This document shows, piece by piece, positions 653 through 43,460 of a stretch of DNA of 64,000 bases. The number at the start of each line of letters is the position of its first letter. Position 1 is the first letter of the stretch. The stretch lies in the NCBI GenBank assembly GCA_937920495.1, contig CALEUQ010000002.1:1-64000 (forward strand), read 5' to 3'. The stretch is from an uncultured bacterium (GTDB taxonomy: Bacteria; Spirochaetota; UBA4802; UB4802). A model generated the notes under the pieces. It had not been told where the DNA came from and did no database searches. It saw only the letters and a list, made by a program, of their open reading frames with translations. A program made the translations under genes and the position numbers.

Positions 653-2173
653 ATGAATAGTAAATCTAAAATACTAATTTTTTTATTTTTATTTATTCTT
701 GACTGTTCCCAAAGTTATAGCATAAACAAGCAATCTAAATTGGCAGGAAGATGGTACCCGGCTGATACTGCAGAGCTTCAAAAATACATAACGACTACAC
801 AAGTTGTGTCCCAATCTATTCAACACATACCATTAATCATTGTCCCGCATGCTGGTTATATGTACAGCGCCCATATAGCAGTAAAGGCTTATAAAGCTGT
901 ATCTGCATATAAGCCAGATGTCATTATCATTATAGGACCATCACACTATGAATATTTCACCGGTTTTGCACTGCCAGTGTATGACGCTATAACAACACCC
1001 CTTGGTACCATTCATATAGATCAAAAAACAATAAAAAATTTATCCACAATCAATCTTTTTGCATTTAACAATAATGCTTTTGAACCTGAGCACTCAGTTG
1101 AGATTCAATTGCCATTTATACAATATTATTTTCCTGAAACATTAGTTATTCCCATACTTGTTGGCAATATCAATACAAAGCAGGCACAACAGGCTGCAAA
1201 AGAATTATTAAAGGCAATATCGCATTACAAAAAACCATTATTCGTTATCAGTAGCGATTTTACTCATCATGGTCCACGCTTTGGATATGCACCCTACTCT
1301 GCACTACCACTGCAAAAGCGCATGCAACACATTACTGACCTTGATAAAAAAGCTATTGAGTACATTATAACATACAATCCTAAAGAATTTCAGCATTTTT
1401 GTGAATCATCACATATAACTATTTGTGGTCGCAATGCAATTTTATGTGCACTTTCATTATTTGACGATGTTTACACAAAAGAGTTGTTAGCTTATTCCAC
1501 CTCTGCAGAAGTTACAGGAGACTATGATAATACCGTCAGTTATGCTGCAATAGTATTAACAGGCACACTGATTCAATCCCACTTTGCATCAGAAAATTCA
1601 ATGATATTTGACCTTTCTTATTTAGAAAAAAATATTTTGCTAACACTTGCACGCAAATCAATTGAAACTATGCTTCATACGCAAACACTGTTACAGTATA
1701 AAGATCCTATTCCGCCACAGTGCGCCAAAAACGCTGGTGCCTTTGTAACACTCACTATAAATGGCTACTTACGCGGATGCATTGGATATATTGAACCTGT
1801 AAAACCGCTATATCAAACTGTGATTGAATGTGCTGCCAGTGCTGCGTTCAATGACCCACGTTTTAAACCTCTTACAAATGAAGAATTAAAAAAAGTAGAC
1901 ATTGAAATTACAGTATTATCACCGCTTAAACCAATATCATCACTTGAAGAATTGCGGCCTGGCACTGATGGACTTGTGGTTGCAAAAGGCAATAGGCGTG
2001 GTGTGCTGCTCCCACAGGTTGCAACTGAATTTGGCTTTACCACACAACAATTTTTTGATCATACATGTCAAAAAGCTGGCATTCATCCTTATGAATACGA
2101 TTCTGTCACAATGTATACATTCACAGTAAATAAATTCAGTGAAAAAGATATTAATACTAAAAAGGAATTATGA
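653..2173 (+). CDS. AmmeMemoRadiSam fusion protein: MEMO1 (AmrB) + AMMECR1 (AmrA)
   Basis: A 506-residue fusion of the two small AmmeMemoRadiSam components. The N-terminal MEMO1-like half (about residues 28-290) carries PHAGYMYS (from residue 65), IIGPSHYE, PEHSVEIQLPF and SSDFTHHG, the His/Asp positions of this extradiol-dioxygenase-like fold. The C-terminal AMMECR1 half (about 310-500) carries the family hexapeptide LRGCIG near residue 372, then NDPRF and EITVLSPLKPI. Residues 6-18 form a hydrophobic N-terminal segment resembling a signal peptide; the following Cys (ILDC) is not a canonical lipobox. The start ATG is preceded by AGGA at 8 bases. The biochemical role of this system is not established; MEMO1 and AMMECR1 homologues co-occur with the radical SAM enzyme encoded next. 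Confidence 0.93.
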   Translation: MNSKSKILIFLFLFILDCSQSYSINKQSKLAGRWYPADTAELQKYITTTQVVSQSIQHIPLIIVPHAGYMYSAHIAVKAYKAVSAYKPDVIIIIGPSHYEYFTGFALPVYDAITTPLGTIHIDQKTIKNLSTINLFAFNNNAFEPEHSVEIQLPFIQYYFPETLVIPILVGNINTKQAQQAAKELLKAISHYKKPLFVISSDFTHHGPRFGYAPYSALPLQKRMQHITDLDKKAIEYIITYNPKEFQHFCESSHITICGRNAILCALSLFDDVYTKELLAYSTSAEVTGDYDNTVSYAAIVLTGTLIQSHFASENSMIFDLSYLEKNILLTLARKSIETMLHTQTLLQYKDPIPPQCAKNAGAFVTLTINGYLRGCIGYIEPVKPLYQTVIECAASAAFNDPRFKPLTNEELKKVDIEITVLSPLKPISSLEELRPGTDGLVVAKGNRRGVLLPQVATEFGFTTQQFFDHTCQKAGIHPYEYDSVTMYTFTVNKFSEKDINTKKEL

Positions 2174-2187
2174 ACAACATAGAAGCA

Positions 2188-2227
2188 AGTGTACTGCCCC
2201 GCCGTTGAAGGCGATGAAGGATATACT
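2188..2227. repeat. possible degenerate core of repeat family A
   Basis: The GC-rich segment resembles the palindromic core of repeat family A (TGTACACC...GCCGCC...GGCGG...GGTGTACA): it has TGTACTGCCCCGCCG, then GAAGGCG, then a degraded right arm. It sits exactly between the AMMECR1 stop and the likely start of the radical SAM gene. The AT-rich outer arms of the family are not clearly present, so this may be a coincidence or an old remnant. Confidence 0.35.
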
Positions 2228-2237
2228 GGTTAATTAT

Positions 2238-3359
2238 ATGAACACACTATCTCGCAAAGAATTTTTGCAAAGTTGTTGGCATTCAGTGCAAATGCTGGTG
2301 ACTGGCTCGTTGTTTCCATTATTCCCTGGAAGCATATTTGCCAGTAACTATCGCCAGGCTATGCACTGGAAAAAAATTGATGCACAAACCGTAGAGTGTA
2401 ATCTTTGCCCAAATCAATGCATACTTCAAAGTGGCAACAAAGGCGTATGCAAAGCACGCCAGTGTATTGATGGCAGGCTATACAGTCTGGTGTATGGACG
2501 TATAGCTGCATATCATATTGACCCAATTGAAAAGAAGCCGTTATATCACTTTTTACCGGGAAATGAAGCCCTGTCAGTTGCAACCGCTGGCTGTAACTTT
2601 AGTTGCAAATTCTGCCAGAACTGGCAGCTTTCGCAATCACATCCTGAAGAACTTGAAAGCCGCTACATAACACCAGAACAGTTAGTAAATCAGGCAAAAC
2701 AAAACAAAACACCTGTGATTGCCTTTACATACAATGAGCCGTCAGTCCAGTATGAATACATTTATGACACAGTACAGATAGCCAAAAAATATAATATAGC
2801 CTGTGTTATCATATCCAATGGATATCTTAATAAAAACGCCAGCCAGTTGCTATACCCATTACTCAATGCCATCAAGATTGACTTTAAGGCATACTCGCAA
2901 AAATTTTATTCAGAGATTTGCGGCGGGAATTTATCACCAGTACTTGCAAATATTGAACTTGCAAAAAAGAACAATGTGTGGCTTGAGCTTGTTAACCTTG
3001 TCATACCTACATTAAACGATAGTCCTGATGATATAAAGGCAATGGCTCGCTTTATTAAAACGCATTGTGGCAGCACAACGCCACTACACTTCACACGATT
3101 TTATCCCATTTACAAATTAAAGAATATCCCACCTACACCGGTATCAACACTTGAGCACGCAAGACAAATAGCGCTAGCCGAAGGGCTAAAATACGTGTAC
3201 ATTGGTAATGTTCCCGGACACACTGCTAACCACACATATTGCCACAATTGTGGCAAGCCTGTAATTGAGCGAAGCGGCTTTTATACAACCACACACATAC
3301 GTAAATCAGGTAAATGCCCATATTGTAATACTGCAATTCCCGGAATATGGAATCTATGA
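2238..3359 (+). CDS. AmmeMemoRadiSam system radical SAM enzyme (AmrS-like)
   Basis: Radical SAM protein with the cluster motif CNFSCKFC (Cys 119, 123 and 126 from the chosen start), preceded by a Cys-rich N-terminal module (CNLCPNQC, then CKARQC) typical of this PflA-like family. A C-terminal zinc-ribbon-like CHNCGK...CPYCN follows. The chosen ATG gives MNTLSRKEFLQ followed by a hydrophobic stretch ending PGSIFAS, which resembles a twin-arginine-type leader with RK instead of RR. Other starts are ATG 2214 and GTG 2139, the latter overlapping the upstream gene by 35 bases. GAAGG-like sequences precede both ATGs at imperfect spacing, so the start is uncertain. Reaction unknown; identity rests on the motifs and on adjacency to MEMO1/AMMECR1. 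Confidence 0.9.
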   Translation: MNTLSRKEFLQSCWHSVQMLVTGSLFPLFPGSIFASNYRQAMHWKKIDAQTVECNLCPNQCILQSGNKGVCKARQCIDGRLYSLVYGRIAAYHIDPIEKKPLYHFLPGNEALSVATAGCNFSCKFCQNWQLSQSHPEELESRYITPEQLVNQAKQNKTPVIAFTYNEPSVQYEYIYDTVQIAKKYNIACVIISNGYLNKNASQLLYPLLNAIKIDFKAYSQKFYSEICGGNLSPVLANIELAKKNNVWLELVNLVIPTLNDSPDDIKAMARFIKTHCGSTTPLHFTRFYPIYKLKNIPPTPVSTLEHARQIALAEGLKYVYIGNVPGHTANHTYCHNCGKPVIERSGFYTTTHIRKSGKCPYCNTAIPGIWNL

Positions 3360-5524
3360 AACATACCCGCATATTTTTATATCTATCTACTTTTTTCATT
3401 GGCATTTCAGCAAGCATAGCCCAGGCCATTATGATTAGAGAATTATTAACGCTTTTCAGGGGAAATGAATTATCCATTGGTATTATTATGGTGTTGTGGT
3501 TTGCAGGTATAGCCGCTGGTGCTGCTGTCAGCAAAAAAACAACACTGCATCAATCTTATATTGCATATATCATTCTGCTTCATCCAGTTATGCTCTTGCT
3601 ATCCATTGTGATGCTATATTGCATACCACTTGTGTATACTACATACGGTTCTTTTTATTCTTTGGAAGCCGAACTTGTAATTGCACTGTTATGCCTTTTC
3701 CCACAATGCTTTGTTGTTGGTTATATCTTCCCTTTGTTAGTTAGCACTGTTTCAGCATTAAAAATACGCTATCCAGGATCAATTGTATTTTTTCTTGAAT
3801 CATCAGGTGCATGCATGGGTGGCATTATCTTTACATTTTTATTCATACAAAAATTCAATCCTATCAGCACTGCGCTTATTCTCTTCATTGCTGCCAGTTT
3901 TATAGCTTTCACTCATTTACAACAAAGGATAAAGCGTGTGGCGATAGTTACCGCTATAGTACTTGCTGCCTTTATAATAGTCCATTCAGATGCATTGGAA
4001 AAAAAACTGCTGACACTATCATTTGCTGCCAATCATCCTGGCACACTGATCGAATACCGACGTACACCATACCAGATGATGTTTGTTGCAGAGCTTGATA
4101 ACACTATTGCACTGTATGGGAACAGCAATCTATATGCGCAATTCCCTGACGATTACTCAGTGCGCCCGATTATTCATGCACTGATTTCAACTGGTTCACT
4201 TTTAAAAAATAGTAACATCCTTATCTCAGGTGATACTGCTTTTTTACAATACGTCTTTGCGTACGCAGGCGCGTCGATTGACTATGTTACTGTTGACCCG
4301 GTGATGTGGAATATGTTGCAACAACAATTTCATATACTCTATCCTGACTTCTCCACAGAAAAAATAATTGTACATTATGACGATACACGCAATTACATGA
4401 AATTTGCACAAAAGGAATATAATGCCATTATCATCTTACCGCCACCACCTGACAGCATCCTGCATAACAGGTTATATACAACAGAATTTTTCAACGATTG
4501 CAAAAAGCATTTATCAGCTAATGGTGTGTGCATTATCCAGATTGAAGGTTTTGCTAATATTATGAATACATCTTTGCGGCGATATGTAGCTTCAGTTGTG
4601 AATAGCTTCAGGCAGGTATTCCCTTCATCGCTGATTTCATCAGGGGATACAATCTATTGCATTGGATTTAATGATAACCAAAAGATTAATGTCAGTAACT
4701 ATCTGTCAGAATATATAAATACTTTTTCTAAAAATCCTGTTGCAAAGACTATACAAAAATTTGTACCCGGATTTAAGCCACAAGAGTTTCAAATGTATTT
4801 TCAGCCATCACAGCTTGAATATCTTGACAACCAGTTAAAATCTGAAAACATAATAAATAGCGATAGCCTGCCAAAAGGTTATTTTGAATATCTGGCAAAT
4901 TCATTACAACAATCAGGCTCATTTGCTCAGGATGTTATCAGCAATCCATTGTATATGATAATAATATTAATACTTACTATATGCTTAAGTTTTTTGTATT
5001 TTAAATCACGTGGTTCTCAACACATATTGTTCGGGATCATCATTTTTATAACAGGATTTATAAGTATGGCAGCAATGCTTATTGCGTTTATTGCGTATCA
5101 AAATGTGTATGGCGTTTTGTACTATAAGATTGCACTGTGCAACGCGTTATTTATGTCAGGACTTGCGATAGGCAGCGCAACCACATTTATGCAAAAAGAT
5201 TTCTTTTTAACAAGAATCATACTGCTGGTTGTGGCATTACTCATGTTGTTCTATTTCACTATATCACACAATGCAATCTTGTTTTATGTTTCTATAACAC
5301 TGATTGCAGCAACAACAGGTTCGTTTATACCTCTTTTGCTTAAAAAATTACCTGATGACATACAACTTTTAGCATCAACCATTAATGCAAGCGATCATAT
5401 TGGCGCATTGTGCGGTGCACTTGTAACTCCATTTGTATTGCTTCCTGTTTTTGGAATGTATTCGTTATGGATACTTCTTATTACGGGAATTATCCTTGCT
5501 TATTTTAGAAAAATGATTTGTTAA
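3356..5524 (+). CDS. polytopic membrane protein with internal spermidine-synthase-like domain
   Basis: About 722 residues. Roughly seven or eight hydrophobic segments (to about residue 210) precede a soluble Rossmann-like domain (about 225-460), followed by more membrane segments to the C-terminus. The soluble domain matches the spermidine/spermine synthase superfamily in layout: ISGDTAFLQY at the nucleotide loop, YVTVDP at the acidic ribose-binding position, and ILPPPPDS followed by NRLYTTEFF where the synthases carry the catalytic Asp motif before the LYxxEFY block. The catalytic Asp positions are replaced by Pro, so classical aminopropyl transfer is doubtful. The ATG at 3356 overlaps the TGA of the radical SAM gene (ATGA), arguing for coupled translation and this start rather than the ATG at 3347. 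Function unknown; probably part of the same envelope system. Confidence 0.8.
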   Translation: MKHTRIFLYLSTFFIGISASIAQAIMIRELLTLFRGNELSIGIIMVLWFAGIAAGAAVSKKTTLHQSYIAYIILLHPVMLLLSIVMLYCIPLVYTTYGSFYSLEAELVIALLCLFPQCFVVGYIFPLLVSTVSALKIRYPGSIVFFLESSGACMGGIIFTFLFIQKFNPISTALILFIAASFIAFTHLQQRIKRVAIVTAIVLAAFIIVHSDALEKKLLTLSFAANHPGTLIEYRRTPYQMMFVAELDNTIALYGNSNLYAQFPDDYSVRPIIHALISTGSLLKNSNILISGDTAFLQYVFAYAGASIDYVTVDPVMWNMLQQQFHILYPDFSTEKIIVHYDDTRNYMKFAQKEYNAIIILPPPPDSILHNRLYTTEFFNDCKKHLSANGVCIIQIEGFANIMNTSLRRYVASVVNSFRQVFPSSLISSGDTIYCIGFNDNQKINVSNYLSEYINTFSKNPVAKTIQKFVPGFKPQEFQMYFQPSQLEYLDNQLKSENIINSDSLPKGYFEYLANSLQQSGSFAQDVISNPLYMIIILILTICLSFLYFKSRGSQHILFGIIIFITGFISMAAMLIAFIAYQNVYGVLYYKIALCNALFMSGLAIGSATTFMQKDFFLTRIILLVVALLMLFYFTISHNAILFYVSITLIAATTGSFIPLLLKKLPDDIQLLASTINASDHIGALCGALVTPFVLLPVFGMYSLWILLITGIILAYFRKMIC

Positions 5525-42968: not shown

Positions 42969-43008
42969 TAATTTTAAATAAATGAAACCAGAAGCAATTA
43001 TAAAAACT

Positions 43009-43089
43009 ACTCCCTCCGCTGGCATTACCCAGTTCAGGTTCTAAGGGTATACTCTCAGGCCTGTGCACCAGCACAAACCACCCCTGCTG
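43009..43089 (-). ncRNA. TPP riboswitch (THI element)
   Basis: On the minus strand the leader carries the conserved THI-box elements in order: GCAGGGGTG, the loop CCTGAGA, ACCC, GAACCTGAACTGGGTAATG, and CCAGCGGAGGGAG closing the P1 stem. Binding of thiamine diphosphate should fold this aptamer and favour the terminator downstream, switching off thiC-thiM-thi4-thiE-thiL. Confidence 0.95.
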
Positions 43090-43460
43090 TAAAGATCAGT
43101 TATATAGTACAAAATACTATAACAAATATATAAAAGCAAGTAATTATCAACGTAACAATAAAAATTTTTTCATCTTTCTGGAATTTTGGGAAATAAGATC
43201 TATCAAAATCAAATTTCATCTTTGTGTTAATTTCTTATTCAAAAAAAAAACTCTACTTACGTATGATAGTATAGCATACAAAGATTGTTGCAATAAAAAT
43301 TGCGCAGAGCTGATGTCAGTTTTATAGAGGTGCCTACATTTTTATCTTATTTTGTACAATTTTCCCAAAATTACCGAATGAGCCAAATTTTTTTAAATAA
43401 GCTATGCTTGCTTATTATTATTGTTTATTGCAAAATGGCATACCCTATATTCAAAGGATA
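43090..43460. other. intergenic region upstream of the thiamine operon
   Basis: This 371-base region contains the unresolved promoter of the thiamine leader (AT-rich, about 43090-43140) and a family B repeat at 43171-43385. No gene is visible. About 75 bases of unremarkable DNA separate the repeat from the stop of the reductase gene at 43461. Confidence 0.6.
43171..43385. repeat. repeat family B, short copy B4
   Basis: Begins CATCTTTCTGGAATTTTGGG then AAATAAGATC and ends TTTTGTACAATTTTCCCAAA then ATTACCGAATGAGCC. The two ends are imperfect inverted repeats (CTGGAATTTTGGGAAA against TTTCCCAAAATTACCG). Inner blocks TTTGTGTTAATTTCTTATTC and GCATACAAAGATTGTTGC match the other B copies. No stem-loop cluster. 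Confidence 0.78.

Follow-up and report, generated by a model that had tools for sequence, protein, structure and literature searches.

A putatively export-targeted AmmeMemoRadiSam gene set with a membrane-embedded, spermidine-synthase-like partner in the Spirochaetota

Inspection of open reading frames at the start of the window (the whole 64,000-nucleotide stretch of DNA that was analyzed) revealed three co-directional forward-strand genes, in agreement with the frames described in an earlier note on this DNA. P1 (653..2173) codes for a 506-residue fusion of MEMO and AMMECR1, P2 (2238..3359) for a radical SAM enzyme and P3 (3347..5524) for a 725-residue membrane protein with 14 transmembrane (TM) helices and a spermidine-synthase-like domain. 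The start codons were assigned from the sequence: position 2238 is the most likely start of P2, with further in-frame starts upstream, and P3 overlaps P2 when read from 3347, with an alternative start at 3356 that forms an ATGA overlap. Judged by their encoded features, the three genes are an export-targeted variant of AmmeMemoRadiSam that is distinct from the ordinary cytosolic set, and this exported version is present in many bacteria and some archaea. AmmeMemoRadiSam is widespread and, to our knowledge, has no known function. Elsewhere in the window a TPP riboswitch lies at 42994-43095 on the reverse strand (RF00059, 67.6 bits).

The MEMO part of P1 covers residues 27-301 (TIGR04336, 2e-70, 237 bits versus a cut-off of 26; PDB MEMO1, E 1.2e-33) and the AMMECR1 part covers residues 328-495 (TIGR04335, 1.3e-55, 187 bits versus a cut-off of 99). 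The N-terminus, described earlier as signal-peptide-like, is indeed so and can be refined to a lipoprotein-like signal sequence (653..721) in which a hydrophobic stretch is followed by Cys18 (nucleotides 704-706), a Cys shared by most homologues that in the window protein is preceded by Leu-Asp, making an unusual putative lipobox. Among 40 homologous fusions, a hydrophobic leader is present in 39, with the remaining one cut by a contig end, and a lipobox-like Cys is present in ~28, with the others resembling ordinary signal peptides. The 40 fusions also retain the residues that align to the metal site of human MEMO1 (H66, H98, D202, H205 and C258), and Cys376 in the AMMECR1 part is likewise conserved.

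P2 matches TIGR04337 at 6.5e-110 (367 bits versus a cut-off of 220) and contains the CxxxCxxC motif as well as all 11 conserved Cys. With truncated rows set aside, the same eleven Cys and other invariant residues are shared by the exported and the cytosolic radical SAM enzymes, and neither the exported enzymes nor the fusions show any sign of lost chemistry as far as their residues can tell. The P2 N-terminus carries a Tat-like motif, SRKEFLQ (2250..2270), followed by a hydrophobic stretch. When leaders were scored by a simple rule (motif then hydrophobic stretch) rather than by a trained predictor, 52 of 60 radical SAM enzymes from P3-linked loci, a sample that includes one leader form with its P3 on another contig, were found to have such a leader (39 RR, 8 RK and 5 KR), as compared to 0/42 of the other radical SAM paralogues. 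The remaining eight comprise two with Sec-like leaders (loci L114 and L150), three leaderless enzymes from Nitrospirota, one second paralogue and two truncated sequences. Thus the Tat-like leader proposed for P2 is the RK variant of the window genus, most homologues have the canonical RR form, and leaders are kept in homologues of both exported proteins. In locus L137 a tandem pair of radical SAM genes (2806-5246) lies beside P3, and only one of the two has a Tat leader.

Conservation of these leaders supports the earlier suggestion that the system acts at or outside the membrane, and envelope targeting of the set is well supported by the protein sequences. The window genome encodes TatC, as do 16 of 19 genomes with the set; none was seen in G002, G021 and G023, perhaps through incompleteness. 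Furthermore, tatC adjoins the set in one altiarchaeal and one nanoarchaeal locus (L159 and L164; Pfam TatC 4e-56 and 1e-58) and also neighbors it in an Omnitrophota locus (L154). A different reading, which we consider rather unlikely, keeps the radical SAM enzyme at the cytoplasmic face, with its leader serving as an anchor or quality-control tag, so that only MEMO-AMMECR1 and the P3 domain would lie outside and P3 would pass the product across. It has in its favor the cytoplasmic location of SAM and reductants, together with three Nitrospirota loci (L119, L124 and L158) where P3 and a lipoprotein-type MEMO-AMMECR1 fusion accompany a leaderless radical SAM enzyme, indicating that the leader is dispensable. 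These leaderless enzymes are the main counter-evidence to export and the strongest argument for action inside. However, a cytoplasmic-face location is difficult to reconcile with a twin-arginine motif that is kept from phylum to phylum but missing from the other paralogues, with tatC as a neighbor at three loci, or with the leaders that are Sec-like rather than Tat-like.

We also analyzed the membrane architecture of P3, for which an AlphaFold2 model was obtained with a pLDDT of 92.5 and a pTM of 0.92. The first 6-TM half (~residues 12-190, 3380..3916) and the second (~residues 557-723, 5015..5515) are homologous (residues 8-191 versus ~557-723, probability 99.0, E 6e-18), and two extra helices flank the intervening spermidine-synthase-like domain (~residues 214-530, 3986..4936), giving a 6+2+6 layout. 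The first half resembles a half of MFS transporters with a TMq of up to 0.59, a likeness that is weak by E-value (0.05 or worse). With the N-terminus inside, inner loops have a mean of 16.3 Lys plus Arg versus 2.9 for outer loops, a difference that has the same direction in 61/61 P3 proteins and that places the synthase-like domain outside the cytoplasm. This placement stays a prediction, given that the same charge pattern is shared by related synthases with 7 TM helices, the majority of which retain both catalytic Asp. Taken together, the model and charge pattern predict a 6+2+6 membrane protein of duplicated, MFS-like build whose synthase-like domain lies outside.

The synthase-like domain gives weak spermidine synthase matches over ~residues 283-424, a fold match to 1uir (4e-9) and a profile match to 3anx (2.4e-37). 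The window protein is below the cut-offs of all three curated families that were compared, namely NF002956 (101 of 472 bits), TIGR00417 (30 of 250 bits) and NF037959 (16 of 40 bits). One criterion for an aminopropyltransferase is the acid of the GxG(D/E)G motif, which binds decarboxylated SAM (dcSAM) (PMC10349129), and this position is non-acidic in 58 of 61 P3 proteins. The three with Asp there belong to the window genus, whose Gly-rich loop is otherwise altered (SGDTAF), which suggests weaker SAM binding in that genus. The catalytic Asp pair (DxxDP) is also changed across these 61 proteins, with the first position mostly Asn (Asn 34, Asp 10) and the second mostly acidic (Asp 23, Glu 14, Pro 9). 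The earlier note had placed Pro at both sites, which is correct for Pro367 of the window protein but not for the first site, Leu364, nor for the wider family. The nucleoside-binding acids are kept, with D346 present in 60/61 proteins and Asp occupying position 317 in 52 (Asn in the other 9), and N374-R375 is invariant (61/61). P3 is not the degenerate partner that it had been called; rather, P3 proteins form a conserved family found in many phyla, with an altered active site that, going by its residues, is without those needed for aminopropyl transfer while keeping the nucleoside-binding acids.

These residue changes led us to reject an aminopropyltransferase role for P3. Family matches named polyamine aminopropyltransferase and a spermidine synthase fold would fit an ordinary membrane-bound aminopropyltransferase in a polyamine-linked operon, but we regard this as very improbable because P3 is far under the curated cut-offs and has lost the dcSAM acid and the catalytic Asp pair. 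Moreover, the window genome has a separate spermidine synthase (240 bits) beside SpeD on contig C5, and no SpeD was found in six P3-bearing genomes (G002, G023, G031, G034, G038 and G048).

The earlier proposal that P3 binds rather than transfers is sustained only in part: there is good support for the loss of aminopropyl transfer, and a binding-only role is possible, but another SAM-dependent transfer, of a methyl group for example, is possible as well, as illustrated by NHMT of Aspergillus, a proven histidine methyltransferase with seven TM helices (PMC10349129). In the leading rival to a SAM-handling role, the P3 domain would catalyze a SAM-dependent transfer, most likely of a methyl group, to an exported substrate shared with the radical SAM enzyme and MEMO-AMMECR1. 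NHMT provides the precedent, being an ER protein with a spermidine-synthase-like domain that is without the dcSAM acid and that methylates secreted enzymes (PMC10349129). P3 is likewise without this acid and carries an invariant motif of its own, N374-R375. However, the TM region of NHMT is reportedly confined to filamentous fungi (PMC10349129), and the likeness between NHMT and P3 is one of described features. Furthermore, the presumed active-site loop of Spirochaetota P3 is Pro-rich with both Asp replaced, and a transferase would still require SAM outside, so we hold this alternative to be possible though doubtful.

Association of P3 with the other genes was addressed by co-occurrence. Among 59 genomes of the phylum, the fusion and P3 are both present in 21 and both absent from 37, with one having P3 only and none having the fusion only (Fisher 4e-15; in two of the cases P3 is a contig-end fragment). 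A 531-residue MEMO frame in G018 that was initially considered a fusion without P3 was dropped, as it has no AMMECR1 match. A similar pattern is seen among 81 genomes of the class of an acidobacterial MAG (G074), where ten have a full-length P3 (E below 1e-200) and exactly these ten have radical SAM matches at E 1e-99 to 1e-114. In these ten, the P3 contig also bears a long MEMO frame in nine and the radical SAM gene in eight. If independent, the exact 10/10 overlap would have a probability of 1/C(81,10), or ~5e-13, a figure that shared ancestry makes too optimistic. We inspected 80 P3 loci drawn from many phyla, and 58 of them have a gene for the radical SAM enzyme or for MEMO/AMMECR1 nearby, as do 30 of the 37 loci where both flanks reach 5 kb. 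For the 22 loci that have no such neighbor, 21 genomes were searched and contained a radical SAM gene elsewhere in 21/21 and MEMO in 20/21, which is a weak point alone because both genes are common. Incomplete assemblies bear on every absence given here. The tie between the set and a membrane-bound synthase-like protein, noted initially from a single locus, is therefore seen as co-occurrence in two phyla, of P3 with the fusion in one and of P3 with its own radical SAM subclade in the other, and P3 co-occurs with the other two genes across phyla. Of the two conditions that the earlier note gave as refuting its reading, absent leaders in homologues and an unconserved third gene, neither was borne out.

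These results also bear on whether the grouping is a matter of chance, with the leaders being start-site artefacts and P3 an unrelated neighbor. Start codons assigned from the sequence leave some room for this, as does the fact that TIGR04337 alone is common (56 of 59 relatives). However, the leaders and P3 are conserved jointly across phyla while gene order changes, with P3 neighborhoods showing several orders and orientations. We consequently reject a chance neighborhood on the basis of the co-occurrence in two phyla and give it next to no weight.

Neighbor clustering revealed no constant fifth gene, only lineage-specific genes and, for the most part, antisense artefacts. In nine loci (L118, L127, L139, L143, L148, L151, L167, L170 and L171) from Acidobacteriota, Latescibacterota and Aminicenantes, the radical SAM gene adjoins a DUF362 gene whose product frequently has a Tat-like leader and is possibly an electron donor or substrate. 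In two Planctomycetota loci (L106 and L122) the radical SAM gene lies beside genes for a DUF3106 protein and for anti-sigma-like and sigma-factor-like proteins; DUF3106 was assigned by Pfam in L106 and the remaining neighbors by eye.

The window genome also has a second, leaderless MEMO and AMMECR1 pair (a 305-residue frame and 191 residues, respectively) on contig C33, located at 1387-2889 of L001, where a TonB-receptor-like gene precedes them. The window assembly yielded no cytosolic radical SAM partner for this pair, although a short leaderless enzyme is present in four congeners. In three congeners (G001 C109, G002 C37 and G003 C27) a cytosolic MEMO gene is encoded on the strand opposite to the exported set, at a distance of ~5-6 kb. 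L180 (G048) and many acidobacterial genomes have a third kind of MEMO, with frames of ~410-445 residues and an extra N-terminal stretch that is PqqD-like by eye. Among the relatives, long leader-bearing radical SAM forms sit beside the fusion and P3, and the short forms (~335 residues) have no MEMO, AMMECR1 or P3 nearby. A tree of 104 radical SAM enzymes sets a clade of 35 leaderless Spirochaetota forms apart from a 67-row side (branch support 99/97) that contains all 60 P3-linked enzymes. The match between leader and clade is imperfect, since short forms of the window genus fall on the P3-linked side on a long branch.

From these observations we favor, at a probability of about 0.45, an export-targeted AmmeMemoRadiSam whose site of action is the outer face of the cytoplasmic membrane and in which P3 supplies or otherwise handles SAM. 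The MEMO-AMMECR1 protein would be exported by its lipoprotein or Sec signal and the radical SAM enzyme by its Tat leader. P3 would carry SAM outwards, or clear spent nucleoside, with its outer domain holding SAM for the exported radical SAM enzyme. The radical SAM enzyme, the MEMO metal site and AMMECR1 would then modify an envelope molecule, either protein or lipid, with the radical chemistry located on the outer side of the cytoplasmic membrane. The SAM role of P3 is an inference, the most economical task for a transporter-like part joined to an outer domain with a SAM-binding fold being to supply SAM or to clear spent nucleoside. A radical SAM enzyme requires both SAM and an electron. We identified no extracytoplasmic source of SAM or of low-potential electrons, which counts against the export model, and we know of no evidence that SAM is available outside the cytoplasm nor of any established extracytoplasmic radical SAM enzyme. 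A search of the available literature likewise returned nothing relevant on AmmeMemoRadiSam function or on a precedent for Tat-exported or extracytoplasmic radical SAM enzymes. The more specific proposal, that an extracytoplasmic radical SAM enzyme is fed SAM by a dedicated MFS-type protein with an external SAM-holding domain, is speculative and less likely than not.

Two human proteins with links to disease, MEMO1 and AMMECR1, have relatives in AmmeMemoRadiSam. The exported variant would narrow the location of the substrate and offers a genetically separable set for testing; it also poses the problem of how SAM and electrons would get to a radical enzyme outside the cytoplasm. A 2019 study by Burroughs reportedly covers the Memo superfamily and its genome contexts and may already mention a P3-like partner.

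Comparison with known systems shows where the set departs from each of them. P3 shares its fold and two nucleoside-binding acids with soluble SpeE (1uir and 3anx), from which it differs in having neither the catalytic Asp pair nor the dcSAM acid and in being membrane-embedded with the domain predicted outside. It matches PRK03612 (NF002956) over the first TM part and the synthase domain in 61/61 members, and several members, though not the window protein, are above the cut-off of the fused MFS/spermidine synthase family NF037959. P3 differs from both families in having a further 6-TM half, homologous to the first, and altered dcSAM and catalytic positions. NHMT, which serves secreted proteins, has by description the same combination of seven TM helices and a spermidine-synthase-like domain without the dcSAM acid, but has no radical SAM or MEMO partner and has a TM region reported from filamentous fungi only (PMC10349129). 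The closest relative of the set as a whole is AmmeMemoRadiSam itself (TIGR04335, TIGR04336 and TIGR04337), whose three proteins are all present above curated cut-offs with conserved active-site residues. The set described here differs from it in the fusion of MEMO and AMMECR1 behind a signal sequence, in the Tat leader of the radical SAM enzyme, and in the addition of P3 as an obligatory, or nearly obligatory, fourth component.
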